From Bacillus sp. 123MFChir2 (GTDB taxonomy: Bacteria; Bacillota; Bacilli; Bacillales; Bacillaceae_G): a DNA stretch of 34,605 nucleotides. The position numbers and the translations under genes are program-made. The notes beneath the pieces are model-generated. The model saw only the letters and a program-made list of their open reading frames with translations, was not told the DNA's origin and searched no databases. Position 1 is the first letter of the stretch. The number at the start of each line of letters is the position of its first letter. The stretch spans positions 1-34,605 of the forward strand of contig NZ_KB910967.1 in assembly GCF_000383235.1 (NCBI RefSeq). Reading direction: 5' to 3'. This document shows positions 12,259-29,703 of this stretch, piece by piece.

Positions 12259-12395
12259 TTATTCCTCAGGATATCGCTCTTTTACAAGTTCTTCGAGGTT
12301 ATTACTTTTTTGATTTCTTCTGATGATAACCAGGCACTATATATTGTTCCATTCTTGTTGGTTAAACATATGGTAAATTCTTTATTATGTAGTTC
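12259..12395 (-). pseudogene. Frameshifted C-terminal fragment of an unidentified small protein
   Basis: On the minus strand a frame reads KEELHNKEFTICLTNKNGTI, then YSAWLSSEEIKKVI. After a one-base slip it continues NLEELVKERYPEE and stops at 12259. The composition is protein-like, and joining the two frames gives a sensible C-terminus. It overlaps the tail of the broken sdaAB and has no visible start. Family not recognised. Confidence 0.35.
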
Positions 12396-13047
12396 CTCTT
12401 TAAGGCTAGTGTTTGATAAATCTTTGGTAATCCTTTAATTTCCTCAATTACTTCATGATTTAATAGTTCCTCAGTTTCAATCACCAATAGAGATATTTTT
12501 CCTTTTACGATACACGTATCATATTAATATTAATTTTACGTCTTGCTAATATAGAAGCTACAGACGAAATTGTACCAAAATGATCATTGTTCATAATAAG
12601 AAGAGCTGATCTTGTTTCATTTAACTTCAAATCAAAACCGTTAATCTCAATAATTTTGATTTTCCCCCAACCAATCGAACAAGCAATCATCTCAATTTTA
12701 TCTTCACCTTTGTATAAAGTAATCTTTACTGTATTGGGATAAAACGGTTTTGCAATCTCTTCTATACAATTAACTGTAATTCCTCTCTCTGTTGCAATTG
12801 TAAGGGCATTAGAGAATAGTGAGTCCTCCATTTCAAATCCTAAAATACCACCAACAATTGCTACGTCGGCTCCAACAGTGCAATTCATTTTTTTGAATGC
12901 TCCATATAAAGAAATTTTAATTTTTTCTGGGTCTTTTAAAAATAGATGACGAACAATATGTCCTATCTTTGTTGTTTCTACTCCATAAGCACTAGGTGTT
13001 CCAATAGTAATAGGACCAATAATATCAAATACTGATTTATATTTCAT
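12362..13047 (-). pseudogene. sdaAB: L-serine dehydratase beta subunit, frameshifted
   Basis: The first frame (180 codons) reads MKYKSVFDIIGPITIGTPSA, then the beta-chain features HLFLKDPEKIKISLYGAFKK and an ACT-like C-terminal part (HFGTISSVASILARRKINI). It stops at 12505 after NMIRVS. A different frame continues GKISLLVIETEELLNHEVIE, EIKGLPKIYQTL, which is the expected SdaAB C-terminus. Intact Bacillus SdaAB is about 220 residues. The gene lacks a good ribosome binding site, and its partner sdaAA, which holds the iron-sulfur catalytic subunit, is absent. It is almost certainly non-functional in serine deamination. Confidence 0.8.
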
Positions 13048-13299
13048 AACTGAAAGGTAATGAAAATACGGATTATAATAAGCGATCCATCCTTTTATTA
13101 AGATATCTATTCAATATAAAGAGTTTTTTGATATTTTTAACAATAATTTTTAATAAAAAGATGTATTGATTTATTTGTCATTATTGAAGGTGAACGATCA
13201 TGTTTATTTAAAAAATCAGTAAATAGAGAATGTAATTTGTTAGGTAGTTATGCCTTATTTACAATTACACTAGAAATCCTGTAGAATATTTTATAAATA

Positions 13300-13334
13300 A
13301 AGCCCATGGGAATTTTTTAATTCCCTGGGCTTTC
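13300..13334. terminator. Bidirectional terminator overlapping the transporter stop
   Basis: AAAGCCCATGGGAATT and AATTCCCTGGGCTTT pair with a single unpaired A around TTTT, and TTTCATTTTT follows on the plus strand. The stem includes the last codons and stop of the EamA gene. It ends the ALAS-like/EamA transcription unit. Confidence 0.75.
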
Positions 13335-14228
13335 ATTTTTCGTAACATTCCGAGTCCTGTATGGTAAGCGAAATCCTAGTGCAATTGCTGCTCCAATGCA
13401 ACTAAATAAACATCCGAACAGTAAATAGAGAGTAGGTGTAGAATCTCCAATCGCAACAGAGGCAACCCCACCTATTGCCGGAAAGAGTGCCACCATATAA
13501 CTACTAACTGATGCACCGATTCGTTCTACTAGCTTGAGGTAGAACATCCATGCCCCAAAGGAAGCAAATACAGTTAAAAATGCCAAAGCTCCAAGATAGG
13601 AAACGGACGTTGGTAGTGTAAAGTTCTGTTCCTGAAAGGTACAAACAGCAAGTAAAAGTATCGAAGCCACAACAAAGCCAACACTATTCGAATAAACCGC
13701 ATTAATACCACGTCGTGCATTTTGGGCGGAAGCTGCATCACCAATAGCTGTAAGTATAGTTCCAATCAATGCAAGGCCTATTCCTTTTAAATCACTTGTA
13801 CTAGAGCCCTTTATTAGTAATGGATAAACCAATATAGAAACACCCGTAATACCGACTATTCCCCCTATTAGAATTCGGGGATGAAGACGCTCACCTAGAA
13901 ATATACGAAGTGCAATCGGTGTCAGAACTGTCTTCAGTGAAAACAGCAGCGTTACTAGTGCGGCAGAAATCCAAATTGTCGCGTAGTATAAACACAAGTA
14001 GCTTAGAGCTAAGTTACATACCCCAAAAGTAACAAGGGGGAAAACATCTTTACGAGAAGGCCTACCATTAGGACGTACCACGCACATGAGGACAATAAAC
14101 ATTAGTGCAGCCCCCATCAAGCGATAGGTCAATGACAATTCAAGACTTACAGGTGTACCTTGTATTTTTACTACAATAAAGTTTAATCCCCAAACTATTA
14201 AGCAGAAGATATACATAAAAGCTGTCAT
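13317..14228 (-). CDS. EamA-family (DMT) exporter coupled to the ALAS-like gene
   Basis: A 303-residue protein with ten hydrophobic segments arranged as two EamA repeats. The first begins [20 protein letters not shown] (W-G-x-N-F motif); the second starts near [20 protein letters not shown]. The EamA landmark FLGERLHPR closes the first half. DMT proteins of this type export amino acids and small metabolites. The ATG overlaps the ALAS-like stop by four bases (ATGA), so the two are translationally coupled and the natural inference is that it exports that enzyme's product. By eye the pair is somewhat richer in G+C than its neighbours, which fits acquisition. Confidence 0.9.
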
Positions 14229-15457
14229 ACATGTATCACGTCGTTCTCCTGTGCGAAAGGAATATCGAAATAATTAAAAACTTCTGTTAATGCAACAGCC
14301 AGTTGCGTTATCTGTTCCTCAGTATGATTCGGTGTAACGTTAACCCGGAAGCGTTCTGTGCCGACAGGAACCGTTGGTGAATTAATAGGTTGCAGATAGA
14401 CGTGATGTTGTTCAAGGAGACGTTGGGCAGCAGCTTTACATTTTTTTGCATCACCAATCAGTACAGGGAGAATATGCGTTTCACTTGAGTCCATTATCGG
14501 AATATTTGCTTGAGCAAGTGCCTCTCTTAACATGCTAGTTTTTTGGTGTAGAGCATTCCGCTCGTTATCTGAAGATTTTAAGTGCTCAACGCTAGCATGA
14601 CAGGCCGCAACAACAGCTGGTGGTAAAGATGTTGTAAAAATAAAACCGGACGCAAAAGAACGAACAGCGTCAATTAGTAGTGATGAAGCTGCAATGTATC
14701 CCCCGATTACTCCAATACCTTTTGCCATTGTTCCTTGAATAAAGTCCAATCGATCCACAAGACCTAGTTCAGCAGCTATTCCTGCTCCGCGAGGACCGTA
14801 CATACCGATTGCATGTACTTCATCAAGAAATGTTAAAGCGTTATATTTATCTGCAAGATCCGCAATTTTCTGAATCGGTGAAATATCGCCATCCATTGAG
14901 TATACTGATTCAAACACAATAATTTTTGCTCGATCATGTGGTTGAGCTGCAAGTAACTCTTCCAAATGGTTAACGTCATTATGTCTAAATATCGCTCGTT
15001 CGACTTGAGTGCTACGTATACCATTAATAATTGAAGCGTGATTTCGTTCGTCAGAAAATACTATGCAATTTGGAAATAGACGAAGTAAACATTGTAATGT
15101 TGCATCATTCGAGCCATATCCTGTAGGAAAAACTAATGCGGCTTCTTTACCATGCCATTCCGCAAGTGAAGATTCAAGTGCAGCGTAATGATAATGTGTA
15201 CCACCTATATTTCGAGATCCGCCTGAACCAGCACCAAATGCTCGAATTGCATCATGCATTGCTTCGGTAACTACTGGGTGCTGAGACATTCCTAGATAGT
15301 CATTGCTGCACCAAACGACAACTGGTTGCCCATCTTTCTGGCCATTCAATTGTGCTAAAGGATATTGGCCACGCATCCGATTAATTGTAACAAATTCTCG
15401 ATATTGTCCGCTTTCTTTCAAAGATTCGAGCTTATTTTCAATAATTTTTGCATACAT
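14225..15457 (-). CDS. 5-aminolevulinate synthase-like PLP enzyme (alpha-oxoamine synthase)
   Basis: A 410-residue fold-type I PLP enzyme that condenses an amino acid with an acyl-CoA, releasing CO2. It follows the ALAS pattern end to end: [94 protein letters not shown] and [17 protein letters not shown]. Likely residues are Arg20 and Asn83 (succinyl-CoA carboxylate), His140, Asp212, His215, Lys246 (PLP Schiff base) and Thr362. Two departures from canonical ALAS: Ser81 where ALAS has Thr in the glycine-specificity loop, and AKGIG around the PLP lysine instead of AKAFG. Bacillus makes ALA by the C5 route, so this is not a housekeeping haem gene. RBS TTGGAGG. It could make ALA itself or a serine-derived analogue. 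Confidence 0.88.
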
Positions 15458-22471: not shown

Positions 22472-24346
22472 TCAAGAAGCATCCGCACTCTCAAACTGAC
22501 TATTATAAAGTGAAGCATAAAACCCATCAGCTTTCAACAATTCTTCATGATTACCCTGTTCAACAATATCCCCGTCTTTCATGACAAGGATTAGATCGGC
22601 ATCACGAATTGTTGATAATCTATGAGCGATGATGAAGCTTGTTCGGCCTTTCATCAGGTTTTCCATTGCTTTTTGGATGAGTACTTCTGTACGCGTGTCG
22701 ATGGAGCTTGTTGCTTCGTCGAGTATTAAGATTTTCGGATCCGCTAGGAGGGCGCGGGCAATTGTGAGTAATTGCTTTTGTCCTTGGGATACGTTGCTTG
22801 CTTCTTCGTTTAGTTCCATTTGATATTTGTTTGGTAATGTTTTGACGAAGCTGTGTACGTGTGCGGCTTTCGCTGCTTCGATGACTTCTTCGTCGGTTGC
22901 GTCTAGTCTGCCGTAACGGATGTTTTCCATGATGGATCCGTTAAATAGCCAGGTGTCCTGTAGTACCATTCCGAACATGTTTCGCAATTCTTCGCGGGTG
23001 AAGTCTTTGATGTCGTGACCGTCTATGCAGATGGCACCGCTGTTTACGTCGTAGAAACGCATTAATAGTTTTACGATCGTTGTTTTACCTGCACCGGTTG
23101 GACCGACGATTGCGACTTTTTGACCAGGTTTGATAGCAGCTGAGAAGTTGTTGATGATCGTTTTATCTGGATTGTAGCCAAATTCAACATCTTTGAAGGT
23201 AACTTCTCCGTTTACTTTTTGTAGCTGCACTGGATTTTCTGATTCTGGCGTTTCCTCTTCTTCTTCTAAAAATTCGAAGACTCTTTCGGCAGCAGCAGCT
23301 GTCGATTGGAGTACGTTCGCGATTTGCGCTACTTGTGCGATTGGTTGTGTAAAGCTTCTTACATATTGCACAAATGCTAAAATATCACCAACTGCAATTG
23401 TTCTCTTTGCCGCAAGCCATCCACCTAAAATCGATACGGCTACGTAACCGATGTTACCGATAAACATCATAATCGGCATCATCATTCCTGATAAAAATTG
23501 CGACTTCCATGCCGAGTGGTAAAGGGTATCGTTTACCTCTTCGAATTTTTTTACTTCTTCTTCTTCTGTGTTAAAGGCTTTGACGATATTGTGACCACTG
23601 TAAATTTCTTCAACTTGCCCGTTTACGTGTCCTAAATATTCCTGCTGGGATTTGAAGTATTTTTGTGATCGTTTTACGACTGCCATGATGAGCATCATTG
23701 ATACTGGCAAGATTAAGAGCGCGACTAATGTCATTTGCCAGCTAATTGATAACATCATGATGAGTACACCGATGATTGTAATCACGGATGTAATAATTTG
23801 CGACATACTTTGATTTAACGTTTGGCTCACTGTATCTACGTCATTTGTAATGCGAGATAATACTTCTCCGTGCGTCGTTTTATCAAAGTATTTCAGCGGC
23901 ATCCGGTTAATTTTTTCATCAATTTCTTTTCTGAAGTTATAAGATACTTTTTGAGCTACACCGGAAATAATGTATCCTTGAATAATGCCAAATGCAGCGC
24001 TCAGTATATATAATCCAAGGAGTAACAAGACAATGTTTCCGATATAAGTAAAGTCAATTGCCGCACCTGGTGCTCCTGTTACTTTGCTTACGAGTCCTTC
24101 GAAAAGTTTTGTTGTGGCTTTTCCTAAAATTTTTGGACCGACGATTGTAAAGGCTGCGCTACCAATTGCGAAAAGGATGACGACTAAGATTGATAATTTA
24201 TAGGGCTTCAAGTATTGAAGTAACTTATTCATCGTTTCTTTGAAGTTCTTTGCTTTCTCAATCTTTCGCATGCCGCCGCCCATATGACCACCGCCGCCAG
24301 GACCAGGGCTACCTTGTTTTTTATGTTCTATTTTTTTATCGCTCAT
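22472..24346 (-). CDS. Heterodimeric ABC exporter subunit with catalytic Glu (YfiC-like)
   Basis: A 624-residue half-transporter with a Gly-rich N-terminus (GSPGPGGGGHMGGGM), six membrane helices (about 50-345) and an ATPase domain. Walker A is GPTGAGKT (415-422), Walker B LILDE with catalytic Glu544, and the H-loop His575 (IIAHRLS) is intact. Its signature is degenerate: NVSQGQKQLL (519-523 VSQGQ) instead of LSGGQ. That is the pattern of the subunit paired with a degenerate partner in LmrCD/BmrCD/TM287-288-type exporters. Cotranslated with the 739-residue subunit (ATGA overlap). Probably multidrug or lipid export; substrate unknown. Confidence 0.92.
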   Translation of the reverse strand: MSDKKIEHKKQGSPGPGGGGHMGGGMRKIEKAKNFKETMNKLLQYLKPYKLSILVVILFAIGSAAFTIVGPKILGKATTKLFEGLVSKVTGAPGAAIDFTYIGNIVLLLLGLYILSAAFGIIQGYIISGVAQKVSYNFRKEIDEKINRMPLKYFDKTTHGEVLSRITNDVDTVSQTLNQSMSQIITSVITIIGVLIMMLSISWQMTLVALLILPVSMMLIMAVVKRSQKYFKSQQEYLGHVNGQVEEIYSGHNIVKAFNTEEEEVKKFEEVNDTLYHSAWKSQFLSGMMMPIMMFIGNIGYVAVSILGGWLAAKRTIAVGDILAFVQYVRSFTQPIAQVAQIANVLQSTAAAAERVFEFLEEEEETPESENPVQLQKVNGEVTFKDVEFGYNPDKTIINNFSAAIKPGQKVAIVGPTGAGKTTIVKLLMRFYDVNSGAICIDGHDIKDFTREELRNMFGMVLQDTWLFNGSIMENIRYGRLDATDEEVIEAAKAAHVHSFVKTLPNKYQMELNEEASNVSQGQKQLLTIARALLADPKILILDEATSSIDTRTEVLIQKAMENLMKGRTSFIIAHRLSTIRDADLILVMKDGDIVEQGNHEELLKADGFYASLYNSQFESADAS

Positions 24347-26562
24347 GATGACAACTCCTCTCTTGAAAGTTGTGATAAAGCAATTTGCTTATAAACTTCA
24401 CAGTTCTCCATAAGCTCTTCATGAGTACCAGTTCCGACGATTTCTCCTTCGTCCAGTACAATGATCTTATCAGCATTCATAATCGTACTAATTCTTTGAG
24501 CAACAAGTAAAATCGTACTTCCTGCAAGTTCGTTGTTTAAAGCTCTGCGAAGCAGGGCGTCTGTCTTAAAGTCAAGAGCTGAGAAGCTATCATCAAAAAT
24601 GAAGATTTCCGATTGTTTCGTAAGAGCACGCGCGATCGAAAGTCGTTGTTTTTGACCACCGGAAACGTTCGTACCACCTTGTGATATTTCTGTACGGAAG
24701 GTTTCTGGTTTCGCGTTAATAAACTCCATCGCTTGCGCAATTTCTGACGCTTTTACTAATTCTTCTTCACTTGCTTCTTTCTTGCCGTATTTCAGATTAC
24801 TTTCAATTGTACCTGAGAAGAGAACTCCTTTTTGCGGTACATAACCGATTTTCTCTCGTAATTCTTTCTGAGATACTTCTCTAACATCAGTGCCATCAAT
24901 TAAGATTTGGCCACTTGTTACATCGTAAAAGCGCGGAATCAAGTTGATTAATGTTGATTTCCCGCTGCCTGTACTTCCAATGAAAGCCGTTGTTTCACCA
25001 GGTTTTGCGGTAAAGGTGATATGAGAAAGCACATCTTCTTCTGCACCTGGATATTTAAAGCTAACATCTTTAAATTCAACGTAACCGTTCTTGTCTGATG
25101 CGAATGTTTTTGTTTCTTCTGCATCGCGAATGGAAACGTCAGTATCTAGCACTTCTGCAATGCGCTGCGCGGATACAGAAGCACGTGGAACCATAATCGA
25201 AACCATGGAAATCATTAAGAAGGCCATGATGATTTGCATGGTATATTGCATAAACGCCATCATATCACCGACTTGCATATTTCCCATGTTTACTTGGTGC
25301 GATCCAACCCAAATAATCAGTAACGTAACAGCATTCATGATCAACATCATCATCGGCATCATAAATGACATTAAACGGCTGACAAATAAATTTGTTTTTG
25401 TTAAATCTTGATTTCCTTTTTCAAATTTCTTTTCTTCATGCTTTTGATTGTTAAACGCGCGAATGACAAGCATACCTGTTAACGATTCGCGTGTAATTAA
25501 GTTAATGTTATCAACTAACTTTTGGATCATTTTAAATTTAGGGATGGCAACGCTAAATAAGCCGATGACTAAGCTTAAAATTGCGACTACTGCAACGCCG
25601 ATAATCCAGCCCATGGAAAGGTCTGTATTCAGCACTTTAATCATGCCGCCTATGCCTAAAATCGGTGCATAGAAGACGATTCGAAGCATCATGACCATCA
25701 ATGTTTGCACTTGTTGAATATCATTTGTGCTTCTTGTGATTAAAGAAGCAGTGGAAAACTTATCAAACTCCGCATTTGAGAAGCTTGTAACCTTCCGAAA
25801 TACTTTCTTTCGAAGATCTCTGCCGAGTCCAGCAGATACTTTTGCCGCTAGTAAACTTACGATAACGGTAGCTGCCATACTTACTAATGATAAAAGCAGC
25901 ATTTTCCCGCCAGAAGTAAGAATATAACTGGATTGAAGTTTACCTGTATCGATACCAATTGTTTTATATTCATTCTCAATGAATGAAACGGCCGCCTGCG
26001 TTATCATGCTGCCTGGCATCTTTTTAAACTTTTCGTCTGCCTTTTCTTTCATCGCATTGATTTGCTCTTGCGGCAGTTTCGCAATGACTGCGAAAGGATC
26101 GGTATTTGGCGGAAGCTTCATCTCTGTTTTACTATCATTGCCGCCTTTTTCAATTCCTTGTGTAATTAACATCGGTTTCCCAAAGATATCGTTCAGTTCA
26201 CTGATTGTATGTTTATCCGTTGTATGTAGCTTATAAAGAGGTTCTTTATCAAGCTTTGGATAATCTTTTACGTCATTTTTCAGTTCACTTTTAGAAAGAT
26301 TGTTCTTATCTAACAGTACATAGTTGTCAGTTACTGTTTTCTTCTCTTTGTCATTCATAAAGAGCGTAAGTTTATCCATCTCACTTTTACGAATAACCTC
26401 AGGTACTGCGTTTTCGACACCTTTTTGTTGAATCCCTACATTGACAATGTTAGACATGTAGTCTGGCAGTGATAGGTCACATACTGCCTGCACAGTTAAA
26501 AGACATATAACTGCAATGATGGAAGCAACAAATGGTTTTAAATGTTTGATGATCTTGAACAT
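24343..26562 (-). CDS. Heterodimeric ABC exporter subunit with degenerate site and large extracellular insert (YfiB-like)
   Basis: A 739-residue half-transporter. After the first helix (about 11-30) comes an insert of about 180 residues (35-215) rich in Lys, Asp and Asn, presumably extracellular, before helix 2. Walker A is GSTGSGKS (529-536) and the signature NVSGGQKQR is canonical. Walker B ends FIFDD, so the catalytic Glu is Asp658, and the H-loop His is Gln689 (LLVAQRIST). This subunit therefore supplies the good signature motif and the inactive Walker B, complementing its partner exactly. The insert is far longer than in the roughly 580-residue common form. RBS GGAGAG. Confidence 0.92.
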   Translation of the reverse strand: MFKIIKHLKPFVASIIAVICLLTVQAVCDLSLPDYMSNIVNVGIQQKGVENAVPEVIRKSEMDKLTLFMNDKEKKTVTDNYVLLDKNNLSKSELKNDVKDYPKLDKEPLYKLHTTDKHTISELNDIFGKPMLITQGIEKGGNDSKTEMKLPPNTDPFAVIAKLPQEQINAMKEKADEKFKKMPGSMITQAAVSFIENEYKTIGIDTGKLQSSYILTSGGKMLLLSLVSMAATVIVSLLAAKVSAGLGRDLRKKVFRKVTSFSNAEFDKFSTASLITRSTNDIQQVQTLMVMMLRIVFYAPILGIGGMIKVLNTDLSMGWIIGVAVVAILSLVIGLFSVAIPKFKMIQKLVDNINLITRESLTGMLVIRAFNNQKHEEKKFEKGNQDLTKTNLFVSRLMSFMMPMMMLIMNAVTLLIIWVGSHQVNMGNMQVGDMMAFMQYTMQIIMAFLMISMVSIMVPRASVSAQRIAEVLDTDVSIRDAEETKTFASDKNGYVEFKDVSFKYPGAEEDVLSHITFTAKPGETTAFIGSTGSGKSTLINLIPRFYDVTSGQILIDGTDVREVSQKELREKIGYVPQKGVLFSGTIESNLKYGKKEASEEELVKASEIAQAMEFINAKPETFRTEISQGGTNVSGGQKQRLSIARALTKQSEIFIFDDSFSALDFKTDALLRRALNNELAGSTILLVAQRISTIMNADKIIVLDEGEIVGTGTHEELMENCEVYKQIALSQLSREELSS

Positions 26563-26716
26563 TTAATTCATCTCTCCATTTTCCGTTTCTAATTTTTTTA
26601 GCTTTCTCTTTTTTCTTCAGTTTACCCGCTCTTTATCTATCTTCGACTACTGATTAATTTTATGACTATATTAAGATGTAATGCAACATTTAGCTCTTAG
26701 AGTATAAAGATAAATT

Positions 26717-26765
26717 AAAAACCTGGGGCGAAAGGATTTGGCTATGTGTAGAAGCGGTCAGTTGA
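26717..26765 (+). repeat. Structured dispersed repeat, degenerate copy 3
   Basis: AAAACCTGGGGCGAAAGGAT, TTGGCTATGTGTAGAAGCGG, TCAG aligns with the core of the element at 30533-30629. Only the stem-loop part remains. Confidence 0.6.
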
Positions 26766-26826
26766 TTAACTAAAAATAGAAGTTCTAAGTACATGAGGCC
26801 TCATGCGGATTCTAAACTAAGTAAAA

Positions 26827-26875
26827 CCCCCACCTTAACATTCAGTAAAAGTAAAAATGTTAAGTGGGGGAGTCC
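26827..26875. terminator. Terminator downstream of the DUF438 gene
   Basis: CCCCCACCTTAACAT (from 26827) and ATGTTAAGTGGGGG (26857-26870) form a 14-bp stem with one unpaired C and a 15-base loop. On the minus strand GTTTTAC follows. Confidence 0.8.
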
Positions 26876-26914
26876 ATAAAAGTTCGATTGGTGAGGGCTA
26901 ATAAGAGTTTCACT

Positions 26915-28144
26915 TTATGAGAGAATGCGTTTTTCTCCTTGGATTTCTTGAATTGGATTGATATTTTGTGTGAATTCAAGGGTGCCCATGTATTCCCCAT
27001 CTTCACTCCGTATAGCGAAATAGCGAATGTATACATATTTATCTTTGAACTTAATCCAGAAATCTTCACAATCTTTGCTTCCAGATTTAAAGTCTTCCAA
27101 GAGTTTTTCAACGACATGAACGCTTTTCGGAGGATGGCAGTTTTGAACCGTTCTGCCGATTATCGCTTTTGTGCGAGCAAAGATTCGCTCTTTTCCATGA
27201 GAGAAGTAGCGTACAACATCATCTTGATCAATGTACGTAATATCTACAGGTAAGTGGTTCAACATCAACTCTAGTTGTTGTAAAGATAGTATACCTGTTT
27301 CTAAACGAATGAATCCTTCAGACATAGCCTGGTCTTGCACCGCTTTTCTTTCAGGTTTCCATACACTCGCAGGACCTGTTAAGCAATAGCCAATTTCATC
27401 ACTTTCATGAGCGATTTTAACCCATTCATCTTCCGTAAGAGTTTGAAGAGCCATTGGAAACAAAATGTTTTCCTCTTTAAAAATCATTTCAGTTACCTCA
27501 CGGATGACAAAGTAAATGCCGTCTAAGACCGTCTTTTTATCTCCGTTATAATTTGTTAATGATTGTTTCACATCTTTAATGGCGTTACGAATGACATCAT
27601 CGATTCCCCACATTACTTGTGTCGGGCCGTAAATTCCGTATTTCTCTAAATAGGGAAAAAGTAGATTTTCTTTACGGCTGTAATGTTTATCTATATCCAA
27701 CAACAGATTTAAATCTTCGATTAGTTTATAAACGTTTTCTTCACTATCTTCTTTCTCGAAACGTTCGTAGTGAAGTTGAAGTTTGAAGTTAACAAGCTTA
27801 TCAATTTTTTTGTTTTCAAGCTTAAATGTATGAATTGGATGCCCAGCTTGATCTTCGGGTTTATCGGATCGATGGATTTCTTCAATGGAACCTTTAAAAA
27901 TAGCTGTATGCACCGAGCATAAACGTTGTACTTCTTCCACTGGAATTCCTTCTTCTTCCATGAGTGCCTGTTCAAGTTTTGAAATTTCCGCGACAGTAAT
28001 ATTCCCGACTGCTTCTTCAAATTGAGCCTTCACTTCTTCCACACTTTTTCCATTATGAAGATTTTTAATAATTTCCTTTAAGATAGCCTGTCTTTCAAAT
28101 TTATTTATACTTTCTTGTTCACGGTTGTTAATTATTTCGCTCAT
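26915..28144 (-). CDS. DUF438 / hemerythrin / PAS protein
   Basis: A 409-residue cytosolic protein in three parts. Residues 18-85 are DUF438. Residues about 100-240 form a hemerythrin-like helical bundle, with candidate di-iron ligands in GHPIH (102, 105), KHYSRKENLLFP (His154, Glu159), FKEENILFP (Glu224/225) and AHES (His246). Residues 290-395 form a PAS domain with the motif GRTVQNCHPPKSVH. Proteins of this build are thought to sense or handle O2 or NO through the iron pair. It follows the DUF1858 gene by 12 bases, in a unit read from an FNR-type promoter. RBS GAGGAGA. Confidence 0.9.
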   Translation of the reverse strand: MSEIINNREQESINKFERQAILKEIIKNLHNGKSVEEVKAQFEEAVGNITVAEISKLEQALMEEEGIPVEEVQRLCSVHTAIFKGSIEEIHRSDKPEDQAGHPIHTFKLENKKIDKLVNFKLQLHYERFEKEDSEENVYKLIEDLNLLLDIDKHYSRKENLLFPYLEKYGIYGPTQVMWGIDDVIRNAIKDVKQSLTNYNGDKKTVLDGIYFVIREVTEMIFKEENILFPMALQTLTEDEWVKIAHESDEIGYCLTGPASVWKPERKAVQDQAMSEGFIRLETGILSLQQLELMLNHLPVDITYIDQDDVVRYFSHGKERIFARTKAIIGRTVQNCHPPKSVHVVEKLLEDFKSGSKDCEDFWIKFKDKYVYIRYFAIRSEDGEYMGTLEFTQNINPIQEIQGEKRILS

Positions 28145-28156
28145 AAGAATTCTCCT

Positions 28157-28384
28157 CTATTCTTTAATGTTAAATCCATTATTTTCAAAAGTTTTTTTAA
28201 CGACATCGAACGAAATTCCCTTCATACGGCAGCCATTTGGAATAGTCATCACACGGCCGGCCGTGTTGAGCATACCTGGTTTGGTTATTTGTTCAAAGCC
28301 TAATTCTTTTAAGATAGGGATGATTTCAGGGTATTTGTTAGCCAAATCACAAACGGTTTGACTAAAATCAATTATCTTTGTCAT
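28157..28384 (-). CDS. DUF1858-domain protein
   Basis: A 75-residue protein beginning MTKIIDFSQTVCDLANKYPE, with IPILKELGFEQITKPGMLNT and RVMTIPNGCRMKGIS, the DUF1858 (ScdA N-terminal-like) pattern. The family accompanies hybrid-cluster, hemerythrin and DUF438 proteins in anaerobes and NO-stress loci. Two Cys (TVC, NGC) are present. The start at 28384 is used because an upstream GTG lies inside the GAGGTGAG ribosome binding site. First gene of the unit with the DUF438 protein. Confidence 0.85.
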   Translation of the reverse strand: MTKIIDFSQTVCDLANKYPEIIPILKELGFEQITKPGMLNTAGRVMTIPNGCRMKGISFDVVKKTFENNGFNIKE

Positions 28385-28425
28385 CACTCTCACCTCGGAA
28401 ATAAATGATATTAATTCTCAAGAAC

Positions 28426-28468
28426 AATGTAACATAGAGATAATGAATAAGAAGTGAGGAAAATCACA
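28426..28468 (-). promoter_or_regulatory. FNR-type promoter for the DUF1858-DUF438 unit
   Basis: AGTGAGGAAAATCACA (28453-28468) matches 9 of 10 defined bases of the FNR box TGTGA-N6-TCACA. On the minus strand, 21 bp further, lies the -10 hexamer TACATT (28431-28426). This places the box centre at about -41.5, the class II activator position. Confidence 0.75.
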
Positions 28469-28508
28469 CGTAAAAGCTTGATTGGAAAGCGCTGATTAAA
28501 GTTTCACT

Positions 28509-28551
28509 CGTGATATATCTCACAACATGAGTTCTTATATCACTTTACAAT
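28509..28551 (+). promoter_or_regulatory. FNR-type promoter for the radical SAM-YwiC unit
   Basis: CGTGATATATCTCACA (28509-28524) matches 9 of 10 defined bases of the FNR box. After exactly 21 bp comes TACAAT (28546-28551), giving a box centre at about -41.5. The TTG start of the radical SAM gene follows at 28582. Confidence 0.8.
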
Positions 28552-28581
28552 GAGGATATAAATCGATAGGAGGGTTTAATC

Positions 28582-29703
28582 TTGATTAATCGTGATTTTA
28601 ACAAAAATCCATTTATTGTGATATGGGAGTTAACGAGAGCATGCCAATTAAAATGTCTTCATTGTCGTGCGGAAGCTCAGTATCATCGTCATCCTCTGGA
28701 GCTAACATTTGAAGAAGGTAAAAAACTAATTGATGATATATATGAAATGGATAATCCAATGCTTGTTTTTACCGGCGGTGATCCGTTAATGCGTCCAGAT
28801 GTATATGATATTGCGGATTATGCGATAAAAAAAGGTGTTCGAGTCTCTATGACACCAAGTGCTACTCCAAACGTTACGAAAGAAACCATCCAAAAAGCAA
28901 AAGAAGTAGGGCTTGCAAGATGGGCATTTAGTTTAGATGGACCAACAGCTGAAATACACGATCATTTTAGGGGGACAGAGGGGTCATTTGAATTAACAAT
29001 GAATGCGATTCGGTATTTGCATGAATTGAAAATTCCTATTCAAATTAATACGGTTATTTCTAATTATAATGTGAATGTACTTGAAGATATGGCGAAATTA
29101 GTAGAGGAATTAGAGTGTGTGCTTTGGAGTGTATTTTTCTTAGTTCCAACTGGGCGCGGTAAGGAAACAGATATGATTTCACCAGCTGAGCATGAAAGAG
29201 TATTCCAGTGGCTATATCAATTAAGTAAAAAGGTTTCTTTTGATATTAAAACAACGGCTGCTCAGCACTACAGACGTGTTGTGATTCAACAAAAAATGCG
29301 AGAGAGTAAAAAAGCAGATCAGGCTATTCAATATCAGGATGTATTGATGAATGGAATGACAGGGCAGATTGATGGACTTGGGCGTGCTCCAAAAGGGGTA
29401 AATGATGGAAATGGTTTTGTATTTATCTCTCATATTGGAGATGTGTATCCAAGTGGGTTATTACCTATTAAAGCCGGGAATGTTCGAATAACACCACTAG
29501 CTGATATTTATCGAAACTCTCCCATCTTCCAAGACTTGCGTAACCCGGACAAGTATAAAGGGAAATGCGGTGTTTGTGAGTTCCGATATGTTTGCGGAGG
29601 ATCTCGTTCTAGAGCTTTTGCTATGACTGGAGATTACATGGGAAGTGAACCTTTCTGTGTATACATTCCAAAAGCATTACGAAAACAGAAACAAAACGTA
29701 TAA
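28582..29703 (+). CDS. Radical SAM/SPASM-domain enzyme
   Basis: A 373-residue protein. The radical SAM [4Fe-4S] motif is C21-x3-C25-x2-C28 (ACQLKCLHCRA), followed by FTGGDP (65-68, the GGEP position) and FSLDGPTAEIHDHFRG. The C-terminal SPASM region binds auxiliary cluster(s) through C329, C332, C338 and C359 (GKCGVCEFRYVCGGSRSRAF and PFCVY). It resembles the group annotated as TIGR04053-like, related to haem/peptide-modifying enzymes; the substrate is unknown. No precursor peptide was found nearby. The TTG start at 28582 has AGGAGGG seven bases upstream. Under FNR-type control and followed by a YwiC-like gene. Confidence 0.9.
   Translation: MINRDFNKNPFIVIWELTRACQLKCLHCRAEAQYHRHPLELTFEEGKKLIDDIYEMDNPMLVFTGGDPLMRPDVYDIADYAIKKGVRVSMTPSATPNVTKETIQKAKEVGLARWAFSLDGPTAEIHDHFRGTEGSFELTMNAIRYLHELKIPIQINTVISNYNVNVLEDMAKLVEELECVLWSVFFLVPTGRGKETDMISPAEHERVFQWLYQLSKKVSFDIKTTAAQHYRRVVIQQKMRESKKADQAIQYQDVLMNGMTGQIDGLGRAPKGVNDGNGFVFISHIGDVYPSGLLPIKAGNVRITPLADIYRNSPIFQDLRNPDKYKGKCGVCEFRYVCGGSRSRAFAMTGDYMGSEPFCVYIPKALRKQKQNV

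Follow-up and report, generated by a model that had tools for sequence, protein, structure and literature searches.

What does a Bacillus do with a 5-aminolevulinate synthase (ALAS), and why should its gene be joined to that of an exporter? Bacillus makes 5-aminolevulinate (ALA) from glutamyl-tRNA by the C5 route. In the stretch of Bacillus sp. 123MFChir2 DNA analysed here, the first 34,605 nucleotides of contig NZ_KB910967.1 (hereafter the window), an ALAS-like gene is followed immediately by a gene of the EamA family. An initial annotation took the two for an operon that makes and exports ALA or an ALA analogue, a reading that has proved largely right, although the transporter of the system to which it was likened is of another kind. 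The features are as follows.

13295..13338, minus strand: hairpin, probable intrinsic terminator (RNA fold -22.1 kcal/mol, z -5.03)
13317..14228, minus strand: EamA/DMT-family exporter, 303 aa (PF00892, E 5e-28)
14225..14228, minus strand: ATGA overlap of the synthase stop with the EamA start (from the sequence)
14225..15457, minus strand: AlmA-type 5-aminolevulinate synthase homologue, 410 aa (TIGR01821, tree and residues)

The gene pair and its surroundings

The exporter scores 98.5 bits against PF00892, for which the gathering score is 28.2, and contains two EamA stretches, as in the EamA/DMT family. A sequence search of the PDB with this protein gave no match, and no characterised close relative of it was found. 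The four-base overlap between the genes, already noticed in the initial annotation, is indeed an ATGA on the minus strand. An EamA-family gene also adjoins the synthase in ten relatives. The ATGA overlap is kept in seven of the nine that are arranged head to tail, with a TTGA overlap in L034 and genes that simply abut in L081, and in the tenth, L082, the exporter is divergent from the synthase. No internal stop is present in any frame of the 11 synthase–EamA pairs. Because the overlap recurs in relatives and the frames of all the pairs are open, the coupling of the two genes is not due to chance.

The single terminator proposed to follow the pair is plausible: the hairpin folds stably, but its U-tract is weak, its 5' arm lies inside the last EamA codons and it was not among the results of a simple terminator pattern scan. 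An Rfam scan, which could have disclosed the amino acid through a riboswitch or T-box, revealed no RNA element in the window, and no regulator gene adjoins the pair there. The GC content of the pair is 41%, compared with 34.7% for the window, but an ABC gene at 22472-24346 has 41.1%, so that a value of around 41% is not unique to the pair. Directly downstream of the pair, on the minus strand at 12362-13047, is a gene for an L-serine dehydratase beta subunit with an apparent frameshift near its end; its ACT domain seems to resume in another frame, and no adjoining alpha-subunit frame was seen. The region 22472-29703 is possibly a peptide-modifying or anaerobic module: it encodes two neighbouring ABC exporters on the same strand and, in the opposite orientation, a radical SAM/SPASM protein (28582-29703). 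In a search for the species of the window, 249 genomes gave a single hit, at 76%, while three Priestia plasmids matched a 12-kb stretch over 22% of its length at 87%.

Clade and active-site residues of the synthase

Against TIGR01821, the NCBIfam equivalog model for ALAS, the synthase reaches 566 bits (cut-off 338.6). With the bioF and kbl models the values are 354 and 319 bits respectively, each below the model's own cut-off, and among solved structures the enzyme comes closest to the ALAS chains 2bwn and 7x98. The tree described below likewise places it elsewhere than with AONS or KBL. These two identities were therefore rejected and the initial description of a complete ALAS-type protein upheld. 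The PLP lysine is Lys246, and Ser81 aligns with Thr83 of the Rhodobacter capsulatus enzyme (RcALAS), the numbering of which is used from here on. Sixteen records in a phage collection matched the synthase, all at less than 60% identity; among the eight of these that were listed, three are annotated, as KBL or AONS.

A genome scan gave 79 loci, taken from the 80 best of the 96 stretches that were confirmed, and plasmid records added more, of which five were opened. A tree of 85 synthase rows was built by a quick method, leaving out five broken or truncated synthases. In this tree, with its rows from the best 80 of the 96 stretches and from plasmids, the window synthase falls in a clade of 42 rows (SH-aLRT 96). 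A haem ALAS group of 26 rows, mostly alphaproteobacterial (support 98), and a C5N-like group of eight rows (support 97) both stand apart from this clade; a further haem-labelled row, L070, sits alone on a long branch.

AlmA, the synthase of the alaremycin pathway, reportedly acts on L-serine and succinyl-CoA, as a 2025 study of that pathway is said to have found; the names in use for the pathway are AlmA to AlmE. Alaremycin biosynthesis was reported in 2025 from Streptomyces sp. A012304, to go by the title given in the reference lists of citing papers. The A012304 genome has one gene above the ALAS cut-off, and for this reason we take its product (L071) to be AlmA and infer from the producer strain and its single ALAS that the locus is the alaremycin cluster. 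L071 is a member of the 42-row clade. It is 73% identical to the window synthase, and the 15-residue active-site loop is the same in both. The alaremycin connection drawn in the initial annotation is thus supported at the sequence level by the clade of the producer's only ALAS. The DMT-type transporter named with it is not, the A012304 locus having a transporter of the MFS type.

Within the 42 rows the PLP lysine and most of the other checked catalytic positions are invariant, with variation at 149, 156 and 365. The lysine and most of these positions are shared with the haem ALAS (HemA) of the Alphaproteobacteria, from which the clade is nevertheless separated by 12 alignment columns. Position 83 is among them, being serine in all 42 clade rows and threonine in 27 of 27 haem-group rows. 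The C5N cyclising ALAS (cALAS) of the actinomycetes, another ALAS of secondary metabolism, also has Ser83, but differs in grouping in a separate clade, in its loop (AINAPSV, compared with PINSPTVP in the window synthase) and in carrying T365S together with T83S, Thr365 being kept in the window synthase. The kept threonine, the different loop and the separate clade rule out a C5N identity, though T365S alone is no mark of C5N enzymes since it is also found in eight of 31 alm-type rows. The partners of the C5N enzyme, amide synthase and aminolevulinate ligase, were absent from the 20 window ORFs scanned of 53.

Position 83 bears on the choice of amino acid. A position near the amino-acid side chain is described as serine in AONS and SPT and threonine in R. 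capsulatus ALAS (PMC11906848), and by our own mapping this is taken to be residue 83. Thr83 is reported to direct amino-acid specificity, and serine is found at 83 in the C5N ALAS, which uses glycine (PMC4525017). Since this glycine-using enzyme shares it, Ser83 is no proof of a serine or alanine substrate and is only suggestive of one.

Full alm-type clusters and EamA pairs

The neighbourhood survey covered 52 sources, namely 47 alm-type loci, three from Tsukamurella and two C5N-like. The 47 comprise the 42 tree rows and the five broken or truncated synthases, which were placed by identity. In this sample, drawn from the best 80 of 96 stretches and from plasmids, a GNAT acetyltransferase gene and a Gfo/Idh oxidoreductase gene lie beside the synthase in 32 of the 47 loci, 31 of which have an MFS gene as well; in the remaining one, L002, the contig ends first. 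In two of the 32, L031 and L044, the synthase reads as broken. An EamA gene, with neither GNAT nor Gfo/Idh, is found in 11 loci including the window, and EamA together with tailoring genes in none of the 47. Of the four loci left over, L029 lacks all of these genes, while the synthase is broken in L043 and L078 and truncated in L075. The broken or truncated AlmA-type synthases come from Piscirickettsiaceae bacterium (L031), Photorhabdus bodei (L043), Acinetobacter rudis (L044), Streptomyces thermodiastaticus (L075) and Brenneria salicis (L078), suggesting recurrent loss or draft errors.

By Pfam, the neighbours of the A012304 synthase are GNAT, Gfo/Idh, MFS and LysR genes, whereas the window synthase is paired with EamA only. 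No GNAT or Gfo/Idh match lies within 6 kb of it, and the nearest MFS match in the window is about 5.5 kb away on the other strand, and only 28% alike. As the acetyltransferase and oxidoreductase genes of the A012304 locus are absent, the window pair cannot be called an alaremycin cluster. Tailoring by homologues encoded elsewhere was also considered and rejected: whole-genome searches of seven EamA-pair genomes, which may be incomplete drafts, gave no match for Gfo/Idh (E 1e-15) or GNAT (E 1e-8) in any of the seven. The same queries, which were Paenibacillus proteins, matched in all four full-cluster genomes searched. Relatives of the EamA protein (E up to 1e-30), on the other hand, turned up in all seven pair genomes, always next to the synthase, but were absent from nine other genomes. 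Peribacillus simplex has two synthase–EamA pairs.

Full clusters and EamA pairs interleave in the synthase tree. The AU test rejects the placing of all 11 paired synthases in one clade (p 0.0009) but not that of the nine non-staphylococcal ones alone (p 0.23), and on this basis the arrangement recurs. Among the non-staphylococcal Bacilli only one alignment column, in the C-terminal tail, separates nine EamA-paired from 14 full-cluster enzymes. Given this, and the loop shared with A012304, the paired synthase probably does not differ in its chemistry from that of the full clusters. When relatives are compared with the window, the dN/dS of the synthase comes to about 0.06 in the three of eight non-staphylococcal comparisons in which dS was unsaturated, and to 0.15 and 0.24 in the two staphylococcal ones.

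Several loci in the survey vary on these themes. Six proteobacterial alm-type clusters (L018, L022, L025, L026, L030 and L076) have an asparagine-synthase-like amidotransferase between the Gfo/Idh and MFS genes, that of L026 being a 617-aa protein with PF00733 and GATase domains, which hints at an amidated or conjugated relative of alaremycin. The three Tsukamurella genomes (L035, L038 and L042) have a divergent alm-like locus, in which a Ser83 ALAS at 55% identity has GNAT and Gfo/Idh genes downstream and an MFS gene upstream. Two mobilizable plasmids carry synthases annotated as haem biosynthesis: L080, of 9.3 kb from Staphylococcus capitis, has synthase, GNAT, Gfo/Idh and LysR genes and L081, of 14.4 kb from Macrococcoides canis, has a synthase–DMT pair.

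Haem supply, export and the likely product

Glutamyl-tRNA reductase was found above its curated cut-off in all 11 of the relatives' genomes searched, seven of which are pair genomes. Thus for the relatives, at least, an ALAS is not needed for haem, as the initial annotation had held. Nor is the pair a universal feature of Bacillus, since the synthase is present at 78% identity or more in only three of 398 Bacilli genomes, counting the genome at the centre of the search; all three were already in the genome scan, and among the matches listed all others are at most 41% identical. Within one family it occurs in two of 36 genomes, the search centre again included. With serine in place of Thr83, a clade separate from the alphaproteobacterial HemA and relatives that keep glutamyl-tRNA reductase, a haem ALAS was rejected as the identity of the window protein.

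The exporter is found more widely than the synthase. Close EamA relatives (46-65%) occur in 24 of the 398 Bacilli genomes, 21 of them without the synthase and three with it, and also on six Priestia or Peribacillus plasmids, three of which were opened, none of the six having a synthase match above 60%. At the 16 solo loci that were opened, out of 21, there was no match to the synthase, GNAT, Gfo/Idh or the alm MFS, and the commonest neighbour family was present at seven of the 16. These solo genes count against an exclusive role for the exporter, and its restriction to the synthase is ruled out. Paired and solo genes interleave in the EamA trees, and the AU test rejects the grouping of the paired genes in one clade (p 1.8e-7 for 11 genes and 2.1e-6 for the nine non-staphylococcal ones); accordingly, either an existing pump family was joined to the synthase several times or the synthase was lost several times. 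The recurrent pairing, with its ATGA overlap in most head-to-tail relatives, argues for a working link. The solo pumps could be generalists or provide orphan immunity.

The reading we favour, with a fair degree of confidence, is that the pair is a minimal alaremycin-type cassette in which a free ALA analogue is made and is exported by EamA; it would probably serve to secrete a small molecule that imitates a haem precursor, and not to supply the cell's own haem. The cassette, related to the alm clusters, was probably acquired horizontally. Its AlmA-type synthase would give the ALA analogue by condensing a small amino acid with succinyl-CoA; L-serine and L-alanine are the likeliest candidates, and glycine is a possible one. 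In the full clusters the analogue would then be acetylated by the GNAT enzyme and modified by the Gfo/Idh enzyme. Because the genes for both are missing from the pair, the free amino-ketone may itself be the end product, and the unacetylated AlmA product is probably a C5-substituted ALA. RhtA, a threonine/homoserine exporter, belongs, we assume, to the same DMT superfamily as the EamA carrier. It has been used for the export of ALA in engineered strains (PMC10991938), and the coupled carrier may likewise move the amino-ketone outwards, sparing the porphobilinogen synthase of the producer. A second HemB as self-protection was ruled out, a single full-length copy being present in all 16 genomes searched, and this leaves export as the simplest protection. 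In Ectobacillus panaciterrae (L116, 4472-4780) a 102-aa frame gives a match confined to positions 1 to 85 of the HemB profile; nearby are genes for COG0523-type GTPases and for a protein resembling a zinc-binding protein. Alaremycin is described as displacing ALA in porphobilinogen synthase (PMC12670364), and the secreted amino-ketone might act through this enzyme as an antimetabolite of tetrapyrrole synthesis in neighbouring cells, or else as a signal.

The main rival to this is that the pair makes plain ALA from glycine and secretes it, whether as a public good, as the precursor of a photosensitiser or as an overflow valve. In E. coli and C. glutamicum an amino-acid exporter is reported to be enough for the export of ALA (PMC10991938), the C5N ALAS condenses glycine with succinyl-CoA in spite of its Ser83 (PMC4525017), and both the equivalog match and the largely invariant catalytic positions would fit such an enzyme. 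We nonetheless consider it rather unlikely, given the 12 columns, position 83 included, that set the clade apart from the haem group and the acetyltransferase and oxidoreductase genes of 32 of the 47 loci, as an alaremycin-like product would need.

It is very improbable that the synthase, intact and ALAS-like as it is, provides a spare C4 route to the cell's own haem with a transporter linked by chance, when glutamyl-tRNA reductase is present in all 11 relatives' genomes, the gene is sporadic (three of 398 Bacilli), its coupling to the exporter is conserved and the protein groups apart from haem ALAS. Hardly any weight can be given to the idea that the pair is a useless remnant of a full alm cluster after loss of the tailoring genes. 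The interleaving of clusters and pairs and the damaged synthases of L031, L043, L044, L075 and L078 are what would be expected of decay, but the frames are intact in all 11 pairs, dN/dS is low where measurable, the ATGA is conserved and the arrangement recurs.

Beyond the favoured reading of a minimal cassette lies a wider and more doubtful proposal, which we put forward tentatively: that a synthase and an exporter, on chromosomes and plasmids of the Bacillota, form an antibiotic system among the simplest imaginable, secreting a free C5-substituted aminolevulinate against porphobilinogen synthase, and that it arose more than once by the stripping of clusters or the recruitment of a resident EamA pump, the solo pumps being the immunity of non-producers.

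The enzyme type is already known; its two-gene form, the exclusion of the tailoring genes and the spread of the pair appear to be new. In a literature search of titles and abstract openings, a coverage outside which the main alaremycin papers fell, no description of an ALAS–EamA pair, of the exclusion or of the spread was found. Horizontally transferred 'blue branch' hemA genes of actinomycetes and bacilli were treated in 2015 under the heading of a 'black box' (PMC4525017). They too are ALAS genes, resembling loci of Bacilli and of Geobacillus thermoglucosidasius, and the part of that paper concerned with them saw no link to secondary metabolism, whereas here a plasmid of Parageobacillus thermoglucosidasius carries a full alm-type set. 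These mobile hemA genes are now tied to alaremycin-type gene sets in the Bacillota, Pseudomonadota and Actinomycetota. The two-gene form is directly testable. Should a free ALA analogue prove to be its product, a single enzyme would be enough to make a tetrapyrrole antimetabolite, and it would be misleading to annotate plasmid genes of this kind as haem biosynthesis.
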